From the NCBI RefSeq assembly GCF_001719045.1, contig NZ_CP015423.1, positions 434,001-498,000 on the forward strand: a stretch of DNA of 64,000 bases. The letters run 5' to 3'. The notes below the pieces were generated by a model. That model ran no database searches. It had not been told where the DNA came from and was given only the letters and a program-made list of their open reading frames with translations. Both the position numbers and the translations under genes were made by a program. Shown one piece after another: positions 9,761 through 53,938 of the stretch. The DNA comes from Paenibacillus polymyxa (GTDB lineage Bacteria; Bacillota; Bacilli; Paenibacillales; Paenibacillaceae). Every line of letters starts with the position of its first letter. The stretch's first letter is position 1.

Positions 9761-10849
9761 TCACACCACCACTTTATACCCCATCGAATCCAGCAGAGTC
9801 TTGGCACGCTCCCAATCCTGCTCTTGACGGAAGGAAAGCCGCATGATGCCTGGGACATCCTCCCGGCTTTCAATGATTTGCATATTGCTCAGATTAATGC
9901 TGTGATTCCCCAGTTCCATAGCAATTCGCCCGATAATCCCTGGGGTATCCGGTACATCAATATACAGATCAAACGTGGAGACGATGACTCCTTTGCGACG
10001 CTCTGGCAGTTCACTGCGGAAGTGCCCAGCTGTCAAAAACTCGTCAGCGATTCCCTCACCGTCTTGTATTCTCAGTAAATGGGTAAAACGCTCAATCTGT
10101 CCGTTCCATTCTTCCAACAGGCCTAGTAAAACTTCACGATTGCTCAGTAAGATGTCCCGCCACACAACCGGATCACTAGAGGCTATCCGTGTAATATCAC
10201 GGAACCCGCCCGCAGCCAATGTACGGTACAACGGATTTTCATCATTGTGCTTTCGCACCTGATTCACCAGCGCCGCTGCAATAATGTGCGGAAGATGGCT
10301 AATCGCACCGACAATATCATCATGCATATCAGGTTGGACACGCACAACATGAGCACTAGTATATTTTAATAAACGTTCCAGTGAACTGTATGCTTCCTCA
10401 GGCACACCCTCTGCCGGGGAAAGCACATAATATGCGTTTTCAAATAACAATGCGGAAGCAGCCTTTACACCGGAACGCTCCGAACCGGCCATCGGATGAC
10501 CACCGATAAAGTAAGCGTTGCGCAAAGAAATTTCTGATGCTTTTTTGGCAATTGCCGATTTCGTGCTGCCTACATCAGTAATAATACAACCCGTTTTAAG
10601 CGGTAGCTTGCTTAACAGTTCGAGATAATGTTCCAATAAGCCCACAGGTACGCATAAAAAAATAAAATCGGCATCCTCTGCCGCTTCTTCAACCGAAAGA
10701 GTCGCGGTGTCCACGACACCACGGCTTAACATCGGTTCCATCAGTTCAGGGAGATGGGCATGGCCGACAACAGTAATATCCGGCTTCCCTTTAAAACAAA
10801 GTGCGAGGGACCCACCAATCAGTCCCACGCCGAAAATGGCAATCTTCAT
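9761..10849 (-). CDS. tyrA: prephenate dehydrogenase
   Basis: 362 residues; oxidises prephenate to 4-hydroxyphenylpyruvate with NAD for tyrosine synthesis. N-terminal Rossmann fold IAIFGVGLIGGS (GxGxxG), GGHPMAGSERSG near residue 120 and the conserved IVGAISHLPHIIAAALV near 185. Residues ~290-362 (STFDLYIDVPDTPGIIGRIA) form an ACT domain, probably the tyrosine feedback site. The ATG at 10847-10849 follows a TTG; both are in frame and the ribosome site (GGGA) is weak. It is last in the trpEDCFBA-hisC-tyrA run, as in B. subtilis, but aroE (EPSP synthase), which follows in B. subtilis, is absent here. Confidence 0.95.
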   Translation of the reverse strand: MKIAIFGVGLIGGSLALCFKGKPDITVVGHAHLPELMEPMLSRGVVDTATLSVEEAAEDADFIFLCVPVGLLEHYLELLSKLPLKTGCIITDVGSTKSAIAKKASEISLRNAYFIGGHPMAGSERSGVKAASALLFENAYYVLSPAEGVPEEAYSSLERLLKYTSAHVVRVQPDMHDDIVGAISHLPHIIAAALVNQVRKHNDENPLYRTLAAGGFRDITRIASSDPVVWRDILLSNREVLLGLLEEWNGQIERFTHLLRIQDGEGIADEFLTAGHFRSELPERRKGVIVSTFDLYIDVPDTPGIIGRIAMELGNHSINLSNMQIIESREDVPGIMRLSFRQEQDWERAKTLLDSMGYKVVV

Positions 10850-10875
10850 CAATTATCAAATCCCATCTGCGGAAA

Positions 10876-11979
10876 TTATAGGCGTACTTTCGCCGCTTCC
10901 GCCCCCAGGACCTGTTCCAGCACACGAATAAACAACTCATTTTGCGGCTGTGATCCAACCGACACCCTAATATATGTCGGATATTTATGATGACCTGCGC
11001 GAATAATCACACCTTTACGAAGCAACTCCTGGAATACCTCACCGGATGGACGACGTACATCCAGCATAATAAAATTACCATGTGCCGGGAAAGACTCCAG
11101 CCCCAGACGCTTGAGCTCATTTTGCAAATAAGCTCTGCCCTCTGCATTACGATCCCGGCATTCTTGAACAAATTCCTGATCTTCCAAGGCAGCAATGGCC
11201 GCAGCCTGCGCTACCCGTGATGTATTAAACGGTTCACGAACCTGATTTATCAAGCGAATGATTGACTCGGCTCCCATACCATAACCAATGCGCAGCGAAG
11301 CAAGCCCATAGATTTTGGAGAAGGTGCGTAGTACAACCAGGTTTTCGTACGCTGGCAACAAACGAATGCCGTCGGGATACGAACGATCCGTCACAAACTC
11401 GGCGTAGGCTTCATCCAGAACAACCATGATGTGCTTTGGTACTTGGTCCAAAAACGCAATTAGCTCTGCTTCAGGTACAATCGTGCCCGTCGGGTTATTT
11501 GGATTACAGATCCAAATAATTTTTGTACGGTCATTGATGTGAGACAGCATAGCATCCAAATCATGTACACCGTCACGCAAAGGCACCTCAACTGCAACCG
11601 CTCCCTCAATTTCCACATTACTTTTGTATACGGAAAATGTCTGATCGGCCATAATGCTTTCTTCCCCGGGAAGGAGGAAAGCACGCGTAATCAACGCAAT
11701 TATTTCGTCAGATCCGCAGCCATAGATAAACTGTTCCTCTTTTAAACCCGTCCGTTTAGCTAGTGCCTGTGTCAAAGCTACCGCACTTCCGTCAGGATAC
11801 ACACTAATGTTAGCAAACTCCTGCTGAATGGCCTGCAACACTTTGGGAGAGCTACCATACGGATTCTCATTCGAAGCGAGCTTGATGACTTCATCGAGTC
11901 CCAGCTCACGTTTTACGTCTTCAATCGGTTTACCGGGCTGATATACTGGCAAATGTACAATATGCGGTTTAGGTTGCAT
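10876..11979 (-). CDS. hisC: histidinol-phosphate / aromatic aminotransferase
   Basis: 367 residues, PLP-dependent class I/II fold. The Schiff-base lysine is K222 in RTFSKIYGLASLRIGYG; WICNPNNPTGT (about 157-167) and VLDEAYAEF (about 187) are the cofactor contacts; SNENPYGSSP is the N-terminal family mark. In B. subtilis the enzyme encoded at this locus serves both histidine and Tyr/Phe synthesis, which explains its place between trpA and tyrA; the same dual role is inferred here. GGAGG lies eight bases before the ATG at 11977-11979; an earlier in-frame start would overlap that site. Confidence 0.93.
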   Translation of the reverse strand: MQPKPHIVHLPVYQPGKPIEDVKRELGLDEVIKLASNENPYGSSPKVLQAIQQEFANISVYPDGSAVALTQALAKRTGLKEEQFIYGCGSDEIIALITRAFLLPGEESIMADQTFSVYKSNVEIEGAVAVEVPLRDGVHDLDAMLSHINDRTKIIWICNPNNPTGTIVPEAELIAFLDQVPKHIMVVLDEAYAEFVTDRSYPDGIRLLPAYENLVVLRTFSKIYGLASLRIGYGMGAESIIRLINQVREPFNTSRVAQAAAIAALEDQEFVQECRDRNAEGRAYLQNELKRLGLESFPAHGNFIMLDVRRPSGEVFQELLRKGVIIRAGHHKYPTYIRVSVGSQPQNELFIRVLEQVLGAEAAKVRL

Positions 11980-12033
11980 GCCCCTACCTCCTCTATCCAA
12001 TCAGAACATATTTATTACTTTCTATTTTGACAG

Positions 12034-14701: not shown

Positions 14702-15492
14702 GCTTTAACCCCGTCCATCAATTCGGCTACAGCCTGTCCTACATCTTCCTTGCGCATCAGATGCTCCCCCACCAAGATACCGTGTGCACCTACCGAATGC
14801 AGATAATTAACATCTTCCGGTCCCGCAATTCCGCTCTCACTGATGAACGTAACCCCTTTAGGAATTAGTGAGATCAGCTCCTCTGTCGTCTGGAGACGAG
14901 TCTCGAATGTCCGCAGATTTCGGTTATTTACGCCAATTAAGGTTGCTGTCCCCAGCTCCAGCACTGCTTTAAGCTCCTCACTGTCATGCACCTCTACCAA
15001 CGCGTCCAGCCCGAGGTCCTTGGCAATCTGTAAAAAAGACCCTAATACACGGGGTTCCAGGATAGCGGCAATCAATAGCACCGCATCCGCTCCCAGCAGA
15101 CGAGCTTCATATATTTGCCGTTCATCAATGATAAAATCCTTTCGCAGCAGCGGAATCTTCACCTGATCGCGAATTTGCTGTAAATATTCAGGGCTCCCCT
15201 GAAAATACGTCACATCTGTCAGTACAGAAATGCAATCCGCTCCTGCTCCCTCATATGCACGTGCAATGTCCACCGGATGGAAATCCGGTCGAATCAACCC
15301 TTTGGATGGGGAAGCCTTCTTCACCTCAGCAATCAGTCCGAGCGGACGATTGCGTCTGCTCGCGATCGCATTTTCGAATCCTCTCGTCGCAGGTAAATCA
15401 GCAATTAATCGTTCAGCTTTACTTATTTGAAAATGCTCCTTAAGCTGCTCCACTTCTTGTCGCTTCGTCACCACAATTTTGTCAAGATACAT
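14698..15492 (-). CDS. trpC: indole-3-glycerol-phosphate synthase
   Basis: 264 residues, TIM barrel. IAEVKKASPSKG (about 53-64) has the catalytic lysine, PLLRKDFII the second, GVNNRNLRTFE and FISESGI the phosphate and substrate contacts. The start lies 11 bases inside the end of trpD, and its stop overlaps trpF by four bases. Confidence 0.96.
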   Translation of the reverse strand: MYLDKIVVTKRQEVEQLKEHFQISKAERLIADLPATRGFENAIASRRNRPLGLIAEVKKASPSKGLIRPDFHPVDIARAYEGAGADCISVLTDVTYFQGSPEYLQQIRDQVKIPLLRKDFIIDERQIYEARLLGADAVLLIAAILEPRVLGSFLQIAKDLGLDALVEVHDSEELKAVLELGTATLIGVNNRNLRTFETRLQTTEELISLIPKGVTFISESGIAGPEDVNYLHSVGAHGILVGEHLMRKEDVGQAVAELMDGVKA

Positions 15493-16528
15493 ATTGATAT
15501 TCCCCCGTTGCCTGTATTAATTGATCCAGCTTGGAAATTGCCAGTCCTGAGTCAATGGCTTCTGCCGCTCGTGCTACTCCGTCCGTCAAGGTAGTCGCTG
15601 CACCTGATACATAAATGCACGCTCCTGCATTCGCTAACACAACATCCCGATAAGCCCCATGCTCTCCGTTTAAAATTCGTCGTATGATATCTGCGTTAAC
15701 CTGTGCGTCGCCGCCCAGCACTTGATCAAGAGAATGCGTCTGCAAGCCCAGATCCGACGGATGAAGCTCGAACGTGTGAACCTTGCCGTCCTTCAGTTCG
15801 GATACTCGTGTCGCAGCTGAAATACTAATTTCATCTAGCCCATCCAGACTACTGACAACCATGGCCCGTTTGGAGCCGAGCTGGTTCAATACCTCGGCAA
15901 TGACTTCCGTTTTGTTGGCGTCATAAATGCCCAAAAGCTGCCGATCCGCACCAGCCGGATTCGTCAAAGGACCTAGCATATTGAATACCGTCCGCACACC
16001 CAGCTCGCGGCGCGGCGCGGCGGCATGCTTCATAGACGGATGATACAGCTGTGCGAATAAAAAGCAGATGCCGATTCGGTCCAGACATGACCTAGCCTGA
16101 TCACTCGTCAAATGAATGTTGACTCCCAATGCCTCCAGGACATCAGCGCTCCCGGCACGGCCACTTGCAGAACGATTGCCATGCTTTGCTACCCGTACAG
16201 ACACCGAAGCTGCGATGATCGCGGATATCGTGGAAATATTAAACTTGTGAATCCCCGAACCTCCGGTTCCACATGTGTCCAGCAGACGACCGCTGCCTTC
16301 TTCAGCTTGCACTGGACTAGCGTAGCTACGCATAGCCTCGGCAAAACCAGTGATTTCATCTACCGTTTCCCCTTTGAGGCGAAGAGCCGTCAGCAGCCCG
16401 CCAATTTGCGCCTGTGTAGCACTTCCACTCATAATCTGTTCCATTACGCTACGGGCCTCCGTACGCGAAAGGTGCTGTCCCTCAATGATCCGGCTTAACC
16501 CCACTTGCATCATGTCATGTCGTTCCAT
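15482..16528 (-). CDS. trpD: anthranilate phosphoribosyltransferase
   Basis: 348 residues; transfers phosphoribose from PRPP to anthranilate. LLDTCGTGGSGIHKFNISTI is the PRPP-binding signature; KHGNRSASGRAGSADVLEALG and VRTVFNMLGPLTNPA are the other conserved blocks. GGAGGAGACGACA precedes the ATG. It follows trpE by 34 bases; there is no trpG in the operon, so the glutamine amidotransferase subunit must come from elsewhere (pabA/trpG in the folate locus of Bacillus). Confidence 0.96.
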   Translation of the reverse strand: MERHDMMQVGLSRIIEGQHLSRTEARSVMEQIMSGSATQAQIGGLLTALRLKGETVDEITGFAEAMRSYASPVQAEEGSGRLLDTCGTGGSGIHKFNISTISAIIAASVSVRVAKHGNRSASGRAGSADVLEALGVNIHLTSDQARSCLDRIGICFLFAQLYHPSMKHAAAPRRELGVRTVFNMLGPLTNPAGADRQLLGIYDANKTEVIAEVLNQLGSKRAMVVSSLDGLDEISISAATRVSELKDGKVHTFELHPSDLGLQTHSLDQVLGGDAQVNADIIRRILNGEHGAYRDVVLANAGACIYVSGAATTLTDGVARAAEAIDSGLAISKLDQLIQATGEYQYVS

Positions 16529-16562: not shown

Positions 16563-18113
16563 TTACGGAGTGTACAAATAATCCTGGTTGATGACGCTGT
16601 TATAGGGCTGTGTCGTTGCCGGGAACATCACTTCTGCCGTACGGATTGCCTTCAGCAATGCCTTCGCTTTGTTCACCGTCTCCTGATACTCGCTTTCCGG
16701 AACCGAGTCCCACACAATTCCAGCGCCTGCCTGGACATAGGCCCGGTTCTTTTTAAACACAATCGTGCGAATCGTAATGCAAGCGTCCATATTGCCTGAG
16801 AAGCCTAAATATCCAATCGCCCCTGCATAGGGTCCGCGTGCTTCCCGCTCCAACTCAGCAATAATCTCCATGGCTCGTAGCTTCGGAGCCCCCGATACGG
16901 TGCCGGCTGGCAGACAAGACAGGAAAGCATCGAAGAAATCTTTGTCCTCCCGTAGCTCACCTGACACATTGGATACAATGTGCATGACATGGGAATAGCG
17001 TTCAATCTCCATGAACGTATCGCATTTGACTGTGCCAAACTGTGATACACGGCCCAAATCATTTCTTCCCAAATCGACCAGCATCAGATGTTCTGCACGT
17101 TCTTTTTCATCGTTTAACAGTTCTTCAGCAAGTGCCACATCTTCTGTCTCCGTTACCCCACGCGGTCTCGTTCCTGCAATAGGACGGGTTTCTACCCGGC
17201 CGTTTTCCACCTTGACGAGTGCCTCAGGCGAAGTGCCTACGATGATCTCGTCATCCATTTTCAAATAATACATATATGGCGACGGGTTCATCGTGCGCAG
17301 CACGCGGTATACCTGTAAAGGTGAAGCCTCTGTATCAATGTGAAAACGCTGGGATAGTACAACCTGAAAAATATCACCGGAGCGGATATACTCCTTCGCC
17401 TGCTCTACATTTGATATAAACTGTTCCTTCGTCACATTGGATTGGATCTCACCCAGTTCCACATCATCAGGAATGGAGGCTGATCCTAATCGCTCAGGCA
17501 GAGACTGCTTGCGCAAATACTGTGCCGTTTCCTCCAACTTGCGTTCCACGTCAGCATAAGCAGCACGAATGTCCTCATCGCGGAACCCTTCGCCTACATG
17601 AACATTGCCGACCAGCAAAATTTGCTGCTTCACATGATCAAAAACAATGACTTGATCGCAGAACATAAAACGAATATCATCCATATTCAAATCATCTACC
17701 AAATGCTCTGGTAGCTTTTCATAATATTGAAGCAGGTCATATCCAAAAAATCCGATAGCCCCGCCTGTAAATGGAGGCATTTCTTTCAGTTTCGGACTAC
17801 GGTATTTACGAAGCAATGCTTTGAGCGCTTCAATCGGCTTGTCGTTTAATATTTGCCGTTTACCGTGTTGTTCCAATATCAAACGTCCTTTTTTACCCGA
17901 GACCATTAGAAACGGATCTGTACCGATGAATGAATGTCGCGCCCACTGTTCGCCTCCCTCTACACTCTCTAGCAGAAAGGCACGGTCCCGCTCGGCATAC
18001 CGACGGAAAATCCGAATCGGCGTCTCCATATCAGCCAGCACTTTTTTGTACACAGGAATCAGGTTAAATTCATTCGCCATCGTTATCACTTGCTCCACAT
18101 GCGGCGTTAACAT
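16563..18113 (-). CDS. trpE: anthranilate synthase component I
   Basis: 516 residues; commits chorismate to tryptophan. The N-terminal region contains the Trp feedback motif LLES(VEGG) near residue 50; the C-terminal chorismate-binding domain has YIRSGDIFQVVLSQRF, SPEALVKVENG, RPIAGTRPRG and LPAGTVSGAPKLRAMEII. AAGGAAGTGA precedes the ATG. It is the first gene after the TRAP-controlled leader; the attenuator ends about 45 bases before the start codon. Confidence 0.97.
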   Translation of the reverse strand: MLTPHVEQVITMANEFNLIPVYKKVLADMETPIRIFRRYAERDRAFLLESVEGGEQWARHSFIGTDPFLMVSGKKGRLILEQHGKRQILNDKPIEALKALLRKYRSPKLKEMPPFTGGAIGFFGYDLLQYYEKLPEHLVDDLNMDDIRFMFCDQVIVFDHVKQQILLVGNVHVGEGFRDEDIRAAYADVERKLEETAQYLRKQSLPERLGSASIPDDVELGEIQSNVTKEQFISNVEQAKEYIRSGDIFQVVLSQRFHIDTEASPLQVYRVLRTMNPSPYMYYLKMDDEIIVGTSPEALVKVENGRVETRPIAGTRPRGVTETEDVALAEELLNDEKERAEHLMLVDLGRNDLGRVSQFGTVKCDTFMEIERYSHVMHIVSNVSGELREDKDFFDAFLSCLPAGTVSGAPKLRAMEIIAELEREARGPYAGAIGYLGFSGNMDACITIRTIVFKKNRAYVQAGAGIVWDSVPESEYQETVNKAKALLKAIRTAEVMFPATTQPYNSVINQDYLYTP

Positions 18114-18159
18114 GAGATCACTTCCTTTCCAAATTGGCGCAGAACCATAGGAGAGAATA

Positions 18160-18190
18160 TAAAAAAGCCTCTACCGGTAAGGTAGAGGCT
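18160..18190 (-). terminator. trp operon attenuator
   Basis: Minus strand AGCCTCTACC (18190 down to 18181), loop TTACC, GGTAGAGGCT (18175 to 18166), then TTTTTT. A perfect ten-pair intrinsic terminator inside the leader, 47 bases before trpE. Its 5' arm can also pair with TTAAGTAGAG inside the TRAP site (nine pairs, one bulge), an alternative antiterminator. Confidence 0.9.
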
Positions 18191-18375
18191 GTCAGTTATT
18201 GAAATTATAAGAATGCTCCATATGTAAATGACTACAGCAAATAGATAAGTATACACTCATCCCTTTTGTATAAACACGCAGGTTGCTTCAAATAAGCTTC
18301 TCTGTAGAAGAATATCTCTTCATAGACAAAAGCTTACCTGCTACCGCCGGTCTCTGTAATCTCATATGGAATTGG

Positions 18376-18440
18376 CTAAGGCTGCACTCTTCTCATCTCA
18401 ACTCTGTCTCTGGCTAACTCTACTCTACTTAACTCTGCTA
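18376..18440 (-). promoter_or_regulatory. TRAP (MtrB) RNA-binding site in the trp leader
   Basis: On the transcribed (minus) strand I count eleven GAG or TAG triplets in 65 bases, in the order TAG, GAG, TAG, TAG, TAG, GAG, GAG, GAG, GAG, GAG, TAG, mostly two or three bases apart, with one AAG and one CAG filling the wider gaps. B. subtilis TRAP, an 11-subunit ring, binds eleven such repeats. The Trp-bound ring would hide the GTAGAG segment and let the attenuator form. Confidence 0.9.
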
Positions 18441-18445
18441 CACAC

Positions 18446-18475
18446 ACTATATCTCATGGAATGTTACTTTGGCAA
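18446..18475 (-). promoter_or_regulatory. trp operon promoter
   Basis: Minus strand TTGCCA (18475-18470), 18-base spacer, TATAGT (18451-18446). It follows the aroH stop by about 25 bases, so the trp genes have their own promoter inside the supra-operon. Transcription would begin near 18440, at the first TRAP triplet. Confidence 0.65.
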
Positions 18476-18498: not shown

Positions 18499-18873
18499 TT
18501 ATTTCCCTTGGGAAGCCAGATCCGGTCTTAACGCCTGTGCTCCGTTCAAATATACATGTTTAATTTCCCGCTGGGATTTATCGGTGTTCACCTGTACCAT
18601 CAAACGGATGCACTTGGGTAAACTGCCTGCCACAGGAATTTCTAATGCACACATGAGCGGAACCATATCCCAGCCATCAAGCTGACGAATGGCCTTGGCT
18701 GGAAAGGCAGTATCCAGGTCATGGGTCACCGTAATCCATACGTTACTAATATCCTCCGGCTGAATTTCATTGTAGGATACAATTTCCTCCAATAGTTGGC
18801 ATGTTGCTTCCAAAATTTCGTTTTCTTCATTATTCACTACGGTCGTCGCGCCACGAATTCCCCGATTGTACAT
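18499..18873 (-). CDS. aroH: chorismate mutase, AroH type
   Basis: 124 residues, the trimeric monofunctional AroH class of B. subtilis, converting chorismate to prephenate for Phe and Tyr. MYNRGIRGATTVVNNEENEI carries Arg7; VTHDLDTAFPAKAIR and CIRLMVQVNTD supply the remaining active-site residues. It starts two bases after the aroB stop. The trp promoter and leader follow directly. Confidence 0.96.
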   Translation of the reverse strand: MYNRGIRGATTVVNNEENEILEATCQLLEEIVSYNEIQPEDISNVWITVTHDLDTAFPAKAIRQLDGWDMVPLMCALEIPVAGSLPKCIRLMVQVNTDKSQREIKHVYLNGAQALRPDLASQGK

Positions 18874-28447: not shown

Positions 28448-28678
28448 TTAATCCTCCGTATCTACTACCCCGTGCTTGGTCATCACAACGGCTTTGCCGC
28501 GAATTTTAATAGCAGAAGTATGATCCGTAAATTGGACGATCAGTACCTCGCCCTTGTCCAATTTTTCTGAATGATGCAAGCGTGTATCCTGACCTCTAGT
28601 CAGACCAAAAACCTGACATCCGTTGCTTTTCGCTTTAATTACGACGTACTCACTGCTACCCGTCACGTTATCTTCCAT
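28448..28678 (-). CDS. mtrB: trp RNA-binding attenuation protein TRAP
   Basis: 76 residues, aligning throughout with B. subtilis Mtr[41 protein letters not shown] and [17 protein letters not shown]. The RNA-contacting lysine of SEKLDKGEV and the Lys-x-Arg pair of AIKIRG are kept, as are the Thr/Ser residues that bind tryptophan. The 11-mer ring, loaded with Trp, wraps RNA with (G/U)AG repeats; such a site exists in the trp leader of this window. GGAGG precedes the ATG. In B. subtilis mtrA (folE) stands before it; here folE is missing. Confidence 0.96.
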
Positions 28679-51824: not shown

Positions 51825-52118
51825 ATTATTATCGACAACAACAATGATGGAGAAAAGGTATTGATTTCGTCCTCAGAGAACCGGTGCTTGGGTGGAAGCC
51901 GGTGACGAAGTAACTACTTTCAGCGCTCCTGAGTTATTGCACCGAGGTCTGTGGAATACTTCCCGGCATTAGATGCAATCGGCAGAAAACCGTTATCCTT
52001 TCGGTCATTTTATGACCGCTGAAGGCAGTCCATTGCGAAATGGCTGCGAATTAGGGTGGTACCACGATAACTCTCGTCCCTTACTATGGAGATAGTATGT
52101 GATTCGGGGGTTTTTTTG
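51825..52118 (+). promoter_or_regulatory. T-box riboswitch, probably tRNA-Ser specific
   Basis: Stem I: lower helix with a GA motif (GATGGAG / CTCCTGAG), specifier region CTTTCAGCGCTCC, AGAGA bulge and distal hairpin ACCGGTGC/GCCGGT. The T-box sequence TTAGGGTGGTACCACG is at 52051-52066 within the antiterminator. The terminator follows (CTCTCG with CGGGGG, inner TTACTAT / ATAGTA, then TTTTTTT to 52118). AGC, a serine codon followed by G, fits the specifier position and the downstream gene. The 227 bases between the terminator and serA hold nothing else I recognise. Confidence 0.92.
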
Positions 52119-52345: not shown

Positions 52346-53938
52346 ATGTTTAAAGTGTTAGTATCCGATCCGATCAGTGACCTGGGCATCCAGCAGCTGA
52401 TGGATGCAGACGATGTCACGGTGGACAAGAACACAGGTCTCAGCGAGGATGAATTGGTTCAAATTATTGGTGACTATGACGCATTACTCGTTCGAAGCCA
52501 AACTCGGGTTACCGAACGCATCATGACGGCAGGTAAGAACCTCAAGGTTGTAGGGCGAGCTGGGGTCGGAGTGGACAACATCGACCTCGAAGCAGCAACA
52601 CAACGCGGGATTATCGTTATTAACGCTCCTGACGGCAACACGATTACGACTTGTGAGCACACTTTTGCGATGATGATGGCTCTAGCACGTCATATTCCAC
52701 AGGCATATGCCAAAACCATTGGCGGTACATGGGATCGTAAAACATTCCTCGGTGTCGAACTGCGTAACAAAACACTTGGAGTCCTCGGCATGGGACGTAT
52801 CGGCAGTGAGGTGGCTAAACGTGCTAAAGCATTTGGCATGAGCATCCTCGGCTATGATCCATTTCTAACGGAAGAACGCGCTGAGAAGCTGGGCATTAAG
52901 CTGGCGAGCGTGGACGAAATTATCCGCAACGCAGATTTTATGACCGTACACACACCATTAACACCGGAAACGAAACATATGATTGCTCGTCCACAGTTTG
53001 AAGTGATGAAAAAAGGAATGCGCATCATCAACTGTGCCCGGGGTGGAGTTATCGATGAAATGGCTCTTGTTGAAGCCATTGATGAAGGTATCGTTGCCGG
53101 TGCAGCCTTTGACGTATTCGAGTCAGAGCCGCCAGCACAGGATCACCCATTCCTGAGTCATCCGAAAATTATCGTCACACCACATCTGGGTGCCTCGACT
53201 GTCGAAGCTCAGGAAAATGTAGCTATCGATGTGTCCGAGCAAGTGCTGCATATTTTGCGTGATGAGCCTTTTAAAAATGCGGTCAACATGCCTCCAGTAC
53301 CATCCAACGTCATGACGCAATTGCAGCCATATTTCTCGCTTGGAGAAAAGCTGGGCAGCTTTGCCGCTCAGATCACGAATCAGGCTGTACGTGAAATTCA
53401 GGTAGATTACGCTGGCGATTTGTCCTCTGTGGATACACAGCCGCTGACACGGTATATTTTGAAAGGTGTTCTTAGCCGTCATCTGGGCAGCGATGTGAAC
53501 ATTGTAAACTCTGTACATCTGGCCAAAACACGTGACATCCATCTTGTCGTATCTCAGGCGCCCGCCACCAAGGGTTTTACCAACCTGATTACCGTTACAC
53601 TCAAGACGCAGAGCGGCGAAGAGCAACGTGTATCTGGCACCCTGCTGGCAGGCTATGGCGAACGTATTGTTCGGTTGAACCAGTTCCCGGTAGATGTGGC
53701 ACCGGAAGCTCATTTCCTGCTCATCTCCCACAATGATAAACCAGGCATTATCGGTCGTGTCGGCACCTTGCTTGGCGAGAACGGCGTCAATATCGCTTCC
53801 ATGCAAGTAGGGCGTAAAATTGTCGGCGGTGAAGCCATCATGATCCTGACCGTTGATAAAGCTGTACCAAAAGACGTGCTGATTCAACTCGTTGGTTTGC
53901 CAGAACTAAATACTGCCCAAGAAGTAGTGTTAAATTAG
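52346..53938 (+). CDS. serA: D-3-phosphoglycerate dehydrogenase
   Basis: 530 residues; first step of serine synthesis. Catalytic and NAD-binding domain with GRAGVGVDNID, GVLGMGRIGSEVAKRA (GxGxxG 148-153), NCARGGVIDE and VTPHLGAST (catalytic His), an intervening domain (about 330-450) and a C-terminal ACT domain (about 456-530, HNDKPGIIGRVGTLLGENGV) for serine control. GAGGAGG seven bases before the ATG. Controlled by the T-box leader, matching its product. Single-gene unit with its own terminator. Confidence 0.97.
   Translation: MFKVLVSDPISDLGIQQLMDADDVTVDKNTGLSEDELVQIIGDYDALLVRSQTRVTERIMTAGKNLKVVGRAGVGVDNIDLEAATQRGIIVINAPDGNTITTCEHTFAMMMALARHIPQAYAKTIGGTWDRKTFLGVELRNKTLGVLGMGRIGSEVAKRAKAFGMSILGYDPFLTEERAEKLGIKLASVDEIIRNADFMTVHTPLTPETKHMIARPQFEVMKKGMRIINCARGGVIDEMALVEAIDEGIVAGAAFDVFESEPPAQDHPFLSHPKIIVTPHLGASTVEAQENVAIDVSEQVLHILRDEPFKNAVNMPPVPSNVMTQLQPYFSLGEKLGSFAAQITNQAVREIQVDYAGDLSSVDTQPLTRYILKGVLSRHLGSDVNIVNSVHLAKTRDIHLVVSQAPATKGFTNLITVTLKTQSGEEQRVSGTLLAGYGERIVRLNQFPVDVAPEAHFLLISHNDKPGIIGRVGTLLGENGVNIASMQVGRKIVGGEAIMILTVDKAVPKDVLIQLVGLPELNTAQEVVLN

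Follow-up and report, generated by a model that had tools for sequence, protein, structure and literature searches.

How is transcription of the tryptophan operon controlled in Paenibacillus polymyxa, and does that control follow the pattern known from Bacillus? The DNA analysed here, referred to as the window, is a 64,000-nt stretch (contig NZ_CP015423.1, positions 434,001 to 498,000) of a 5.76 Mb genome that has P. brasilensis and P. ottowii among its nearest named relatives. The initial annotation had proposed full Bacillus-style TRAP attenuation at this locus, from (G/U)AG triplets and an intrinsic terminator ahead of trpE and from an mtrB gene in the same window. Control of trpE by TRAP-dependent attenuation is well supported by comparison among sequences, and the tryptophan genes are probably switched off through TRAP by a change of folding that spans ~200 nt. 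The features are collected in Table 1, and the trp genes lie in the same neighbourhood as in B. subtilis. The predicted start of transcription, at ~18439, comes from a consensus promoter match; this match is weak by itself, because the pattern found once at the trp leader is found on average 1.3 times in shuffled sequences. A loose promoter pattern lies 5′ of the TRAP-type site in 158 of 167 leaders. Given the predicted start, the first UAG of the site may fall outside the transcript.

Table 1. Positions of the trp leader elements and associated genes, numbered from the first nucleotide of the window
Feature	Position	Strand	Basis or detail
mtrB, TRAP protein, 76 aa, ~10 kb upstream of the trp leader	28448..28678	-	PF02081, NF009724
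aroH (chorismate mutase type I), directly upstream of the trp promoter	18499..18873	-	family match
Predicted trp promoter, sigma-70-type: -35 TTGCCA (18475-18470), 18-nt spacer, -10 TATAGT (18451-18446)	18446..18475	-	consensus match
TRAP-type site, 13 triplets in register	18376..18440	-	11 (G/U)AG plus AAG18430 and CAG18384
Predicted antiterminator, 5′ strand: GTAG (18428-18425), GTAGAG (18423-18418), GTTGAGAT (18402-18395), AAGAGTGC (18391-18384)	18384..18428	-	inside the TRAP-type site
Spacer between the site and the pre-terminator segment	18225..18375	-	predicted mostly closed domain
Predicted antiterminator, 3′ strand: GCATTCTT (18216-18209), ATTTCAAT (18205-18198), CTCTAC (18187-18182), TTAC (18180-18177)	18177..18216	-	fold prediction
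Intrinsic terminator, AGCCTCTACC / GGTAGAGGCT (18190-18166) plus T-run	18161..18190	-	10 pairs
trpE Shine-Dalgarno region (GGAAAGGAAG)	18121..18130	-	predicted to be partly paired in a weak hairpin
trpE, first gene of the controlled operon	16563..18113	-	family match
trpD, next after trpE	15482-16528		
Aminotransferase gene, further on past trpD	10876-12000		
Prephenate dehydrogenase gene, further on past trpD	9761-10852		

Exactly eleven triplets had been counted in the leader. Eleven non-overlapping (G/U)AG triplets are indeed present between 18440 and 18376, but this count needs gaps of 5 and 8 nt, and 13 triplets are obtained in register: UAG18440, GAG18435, AAG18430, GAG18425, GAG18420, UAG18416 and GAG18410 at positions 1-7, followed by GAG18404, GAG18399, GAG18394, GAG18389, CAG18384 and UAG18378 at positions 8-13. 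One spacing in this register is 1 nt, and the others are the 2-3 nt expected of a TRAP site. The AAG and CAG positions seem to be part of the site, because P. ottowii (L065, with L039 identical in sequence) carries a chain of 13 triplets that are all (G/U)AG, spaced by 1-3 nt. The number of triplets is not fixed, since in an alignment of close relatives (L032-L042, L066-L068) the length of the site varies by gain or loss of 5-nt units, along with other small gaps. The site is beyond chance: its longest (G/U)AG chain at 2-3 nt spacing has 8 triplets and exceeds that in every shuffle, the maximum being 6 when the 316-nt region was dinucleotide-shuffled 5000 times (reached in 6 of the 5000) and 5, on either strand, when the whole window was shuffled 60 times. 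The longest chain on the + strand of the window is 3.

T-boxes and Trp leader peptides control trp genes elsewhere, and one of these might control the operon while the repeats are incidental; we regard this as very improbable. The repeats are conserved across the family. A T-box was looked for at the trp leader and gave no Rfam match at gathering score, and none of six small ORFs of at least 8 codons in the leader contains a Trp codon. The sole Rfam match in the window, a T-box leader (RF00230, 96.3 bits, 51835-52084), is upstream of an ORF at 52346-53938 whose sequence resembles that of a phosphoglycerate dehydrogenase gene (serA).

The regulator annotated in the window is confirmed as MtrB by PF02081 (132 bits) and by NF009724, an NCBIfam equivalog with a cut-off of 117 bits, at 130 bits; it is encoded by one copy in the genome, and it aligns with solved TRAP structures. 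According to the initial annotation, this protein keeps its RNA- and Trp-binding residues. That statement holds for T25, T30, E36, K37, D39, Q47, T49, S53, K56 and R58, all of which are also conserved in 53 of the 53 MtrB proteins that could be read from 56 mtrB loci tried, but not for F32, which is Leu. Residue 32 is Phe in the other 52 of these first 53 proteins. A second set of 14 proteins, taken from the polymyxa clade and its neighbours, has Leu at this position in 13 cases and Phe in one. Leu32 occurs in the window protein, the polymyxa clade and three further genomes. The RNA-contact residues, position 32 included, were taken from PMC3184956 (table and section 6). That paper names K15 and T72 in 'Paenibacillus sp.' and suggests a 12-mer. 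Both residues are present in the window protein (in our own numbering on the structure alignment), and because they match the 12-mer type, the TRAP ring here is possibly a 12-mer as well. Neither residue is general, with Lys15 in 26/53 and Thr72 in 16/53 of the MtrB proteins.

A view of TRAP outside Bacillus as a surprise is unsupported, because mtrB is widespread in genus, family and class: the gene was found in 60/60 genomes sampled from the genus, in 157/157 from the family (19 genera) and in 179/250 from the class. In one of the 60 (G035) it is in two pieces (L343), through a frame break or an assembly error, and the trp leader of that genome (L041) retains its repeat site. Earlier reviews in which Gutierrez-Preciado, Merino and Yanofsky compare trp regulation may already predict TRAP sites in Paenibacillaceae. 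A TRAP of Paenibacillus is discussed in PMC3184956, the only TRAP paper mentioning Paenibacillus among those listed by a search of open-access papers. Homologues of anti-TRAP, with 52-60% identity, are present in 3 of the 60 Paenibacillus genomes (L226, L227, L228), with no Rfam match at gathering score at these loci, and the genome of the window gave no anti-TRAP match.

The terminator proposed ahead of trpE is also present, with 10 pairs and a T-tail. It is the sole terminator-like site between 18000 and 18600 (shuffles give a mean of 0.3), its hairpin is strong (-17.4 kcal/mol), and it starts ~185 nt past the end of the TRAP-type site. To compare this layout among relatives, 182 sequences downstream of aroH (30 + 72 + 80) were collected, and a dense repeat site followed by a terminator was found in 167. 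Merging 12 exact duplicates left 155 distinct leaders, and 146 were kept after leaving out nine: L055 and L165, where the rule chose another hairpin; L156 and L157, with a distant hairpin of a different arm type; and L121, L122, L123, L126 and L129, which are outside the family. The start of the site precedes the start of the terminator by 145-513 nt (median 234.5) in the 146 family leaders, and by 75-97 nt in the five from outside the family, whose records are named Bacillaceae, Brevibacillus, Desulfovirgula and Desulfofundulus. The sequence of the spacer differs widely among clades. By the rule used, 15 of the 182 sequences had no site plus terminator; these include eight that are family members by label or name (L109, L118, L127, L168, L169, L208, L209 and L210), along with the truncated L178. 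Repeats are sparse at the Saccharibacillus loci (L109, L118, L127), and in genus g12, five of eight genomes fail the rule, two with sparse repeats and three with no terminator after the repeat cluster. Viewed by eye, the repeat region in leaders L141-L148 (genera g4 and g5) seems to be split, hairpin-like stretches separating groups of triplets. Leaders L033, L046 and L093 contain extra stretches with palindromic parts between the terminator and trpE; those of L046 and L093 look alike by eye and are perhaps MITE-like.

What could link a repeat site to a terminator so far downstream? Pairing of a segment within the site with the 5′ arm of the terminator had been put forward as the antiterminator. 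These 6 bp, GTAGAG/CTCTAC, exist, but the best predicted partner of the arm is the neighbouring GTAGAG copy at 18423-18418, within a predicted structure that extends well beyond 6 bp. When the pre-terminator transcript was folded, that is, the transcript up to the terminator loop, the 5′ arm of the terminator and the 45 nt before it were predicted to pair back to the TRAP-type site. The CTCTAC element, which is part of this arm, paired with GTAGAG of the site at P 0.97 (arm core 0.97-0.99), GTTGAGAT paired with ATTTCAAT at P 0.99, and AAGAGTGC paired with GCATTCTT at P 0.99; over all helices of the 5′ strand, predicted P was 0.86-0.99. Outside the site, the structure is extended by TCCATATG/CATATGGA (18370-18363 with 18224-18217, P 0.98), and a further helix is formed by GATTACAG/CTGTAGTC (P 0.99). 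The full-length equilibrium fold, on the other hand, favours the terminator: if the 3′ arm is forbidden, the median cost over 66 leaders is 9.2 kcal/mol (range 0.8-18.6), and in the window the cost is 10.6 kcal/mol. Since the terminator is favoured at equilibrium, readthrough needs a kinetic effect, given by the order of folding during transcription.

Over the 146 family leaders, the arm core was predicted to pair with the site at a mean P of 0.79, compared to 0.02 with the spacer and 0.05 with upstream sequence. Much of this pairing reflects pyrimidine-purine composition, because a permuted arm core still pairs with the site at 0.55, and in 17 of the 146 leaders arm-site pairing is 0.5 or less (e.g., 0.04 in L096). 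Pairing between the site and the pre-terminator segment exceeded the mean of three dinucleotide shuffles in 57 of the 73 leaders used for this comparison (73 of the 146; p 3e-8). Site and pre-terminator segment were found to co-evolve in predicted folds when pre-terminator segments were swapped among 66 cluster representatives sharing few 9-mers. Native pairing was greater than the mean of five chimeras in 56/66 clusters (p 1.8e-8), and for the arm alone in 46/66 (p 1.5e-5), p-values that are optimistic because the clusters are still related by descent. When a mid-spacer segment was swapped as a control, with 61 of the 66 representatives used, native pairing was greater than in chimeras in only 7/61, the native value being the lower. 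RNAalifold, applied to five clades, recovered a long-range helix joining the site to the pre-terminator segment in poly, amyl and g4 and, in part, in g2; the 18 leaders of the 'typhae' clade yielded no consensus structure. Within the polymyxa clade, one pair had a two-sided change, a count matched by 68 of 500 shuffles; variation in this clade is too small for such pair counts to be informative. Taken together, fold prediction and co-evolution support an antiterminator that would use nucleotides of the TRAP site and compete with the terminator.

These results bear on the possibility that the locus is truly of the Bacillus style, in which the short GTAGAG/CTCTAC pairing is all that counts, or TRAP by itself makes RNA polymerase stop near the site, and the distant hairpin is secondary. 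MtrB is conserved, and PMC3913778 reports that B. subtilis TRAP stops transcription even without the attenuator, both of which would suit such an arrangement. The same source describes a 203-nt leader in B. subtilis with a weak attenuator, from +108 to +133, that is efficient only with bound TRAP. Here, in contrast, a strong terminator begins ~185 nt past the end of the site, and the excess of pairing with the site is greater for the whole pre-terminator segment than for the arm alone, so that we consider the short-range alternative unlikely. The description of the locus as fully Bacillus-style is not well supported, given the distant strong terminator, the long-range predicted antiterminator and a promoter predicted to abut the site.

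The two arms of the terminator differ in how they vary. The 5′ arm core is CTCTAC in all 48 kept leaders of the window's own genus (g1), and in 50/53 kept named leaders. Of the 111 CTCTAC leaders, 14 have a 3′ arm other than GTAGAG; the change is always A to G, so that pairing is retained as a wobble, and 3 of 7 CTCTGC leaders likewise have an A-to-G wobble in the 3′ arm. A constant 5′ arm and a drifting 3′ arm fit a 5′ arm that has two partners. Counted by eye without a tree, there are ~8 independent changes in the 3′ arm (CTCTAC and CTCTGC arms combined), and the value of 1.5e-4 for 8/8 arm changes is a rough guide only. A wobble is present in 6/19 CTCCTGC leaders, where the side that changed is ambiguous because CCCCTGC and CTCCCGC arms also occur. 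Nor is the 5′ arm invariant throughout, because L175 (g14) has C-to-T wobbles in this arm. With kinship ignored, GTAGAG is present in 85/111 sites that go with a CTCTAC arm vs 12/35 others, and GCAGAG is not type-specific (88/111 vs 26/35). Nor does every genus have an exact complement of its arm, as no GCAGGAG is present in the sites of CTCCTGC leaders (0/19).

If the hairpin were instead a constitutive terminator for transcripts arriving from the aro genes, TRAP would act on translation or not at all. The equilibrium folds, which favour the terminator, and the weak hairpin predicted at the trpE Shine-Dalgarno region would be in keeping with this. Against it, the predicted promoter is upstream of the terminator, and trpE would therefore be nearly silent without antitermination; in the genus, the 3′ arm drifts and the 5′ arm does not; and native pairing with the site exceeds that of chimeras. 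We thus regard a constitutive terminator as quite unlikely. We consider it likely, with good confidence, that trpE is governed by a TRAP-controlled transcription attenuator with a long-range antiterminator.

For this attenuator, we infer tryptophan-dependent binding, its effect on termination and the timing of events as follows. When tryptophan is scarce, TRAP would be inactive, and the repeat-rich 5′ end would pair with the ~35-45 nt before the terminator and with its 5′ arm, so that the terminator hairpin could not form in time and the operon would be transcribed. With ample tryptophan, the TRAP ring would wind the repeats around itself shortly after their synthesis, leaving the pre-terminator segment without its partner; the spacer would fold internally, and transcription would stop at the terminator ~185 nt downstream of the site. 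TRAP of B. subtilis combines refolding of RNA with a more direct effect on termination. The gap of ~80-450 nt between site and terminator in the family would separate these two modes, and because the two elements are so far apart, only refolding should work there. The family would also provide many natural leaders for testing long-range co-transcriptional folding.

A likely new TRAP target gene was also found outside the trp locus. The genome of the window was scanned for five (G/U)AGNN units, and one exact cluster was found, at G000:C1:2652734-2652771. It is part of a run of eight consecutive units at G000:C1:2652729-2652771 (L214 1496-1538), which covers the Shine-Dalgarno region and the ATG of an uncharacterised 237-aa protein. 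Only the exact cluster was used, because with one mismatch the scan gave 9 matches, the trp leader included, vs 17 for the backwards pattern, and so was not above this control, which itself also picks up GAG runs. Neither Pfam nor NCBIfam gave a match to the protein at E 0.001. Many of its relatives are named SAM-dependent methyltransferase, and its AlphaFold model (pLDDT 81.6) is similar to class I methyltransferases, the TM score by query length reaching 0.50 among the 50 matches listed. When the 60 genomes of the genus were scanned for six exact units, matches were found in 40 genomes; the backwards control also matches many genomes, because GAG runs read alike in both directions. Grouped by position, the places matched were 30 methyltransferase starts (the match in G050 lies 5′ of a partial match), 8 trp leaders, 1 second anthranilate synthase (G045), 1 unexplained place between genes (G039) and 4 simple tandem repeats. 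The homologue is present in 48/60 genus genomes, and 30 of its starts were read (L229-L258): 27 contain a chain of 5 or more, and every one of the 30 has at least 7 triplets in 60 nt. In the class, it is present in 36/250 genomes, from which 20 starts were fetched (L314-L333). With a site defined as a chain of at least 4 and at least 8 triplets in 60 nt, starts in mtrB-bearing genomes had a site in 11/17 and none in 6/17, and of three starts in genomes in which mtrB was not detected, two had no site (G208 and G409, which are one family, the G409 copy having stops) and one did (G358).

The methyltransferase gene is thus possibly a new translational target of TRAP, a candidate proposed from its sequence. 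A search of open-access papers listed no title on a TRAP-controlled methyltransferase, and PMC11255114 names the trp operon, trpG, trpP and ycbK as TRAP targets. Control of trpG by TRAP was considered for the genome of the window, and no repeats were found in the 250 nt upstream. In G045, the second anthranilate synthase (PF00425, PF04715) follows a TRAP-type site with a chain of 7 (L263 1485-1628), and a small predicted hairpin includes its Shine-Dalgarno sequence. We lean slightly towards a broader reading, in which TRAP attenuation in Paenibacillaceae would be a pure long-range RNA switch that works on a canonical terminator and needs no direct action of TRAP on RNA polymerase, and in which TRAP, there and in other Bacilli, would also repress a SAM-dependent methyltransferase by covering its start codon, tying this enzyme family to tryptophan.

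Each of these elements can be compared with known TRAP systems. The methyltransferase start has in common with trpG, trpP and ycbK of B. subtilis (PMC11255114) a repeat site over the ribosome-binding region, and differs in that the target is an uncharacterised methyltransferase gene. The 12-subunit TRAP of Bacillus halodurans likewise has K15 and T72 (PMC3184956) and a surplus of triplets, but its leader layout is different, and F32 is replaced by Leu in the polymyxa clade. With the trp attenuator of B. subtilis, the locus shares a ring-shaped RNA-binding protein, (G/U)AG repeats 5′ of trpE and competing antiterminator and terminator structures. In B. subtilis a 5′ stem-loop precedes the site, whereas here there is no room for one if the predicted promoter is right, because the predicted -10 element ends at 18446 and the site starts at 18440; B. 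subtilis also forms a TRAP-dependent hairpin that hides the trpE Shine-Dalgarno sequence, and a weak hairpin involving this region is predicted here. Unlike in B. subtilis, the terminator does not directly follow the site and is strong, and the predicted antiterminator is long-range and closes around a folded domain. This long-range design is found in most of the family leaders read, and it differs from the known Bacillus layout.
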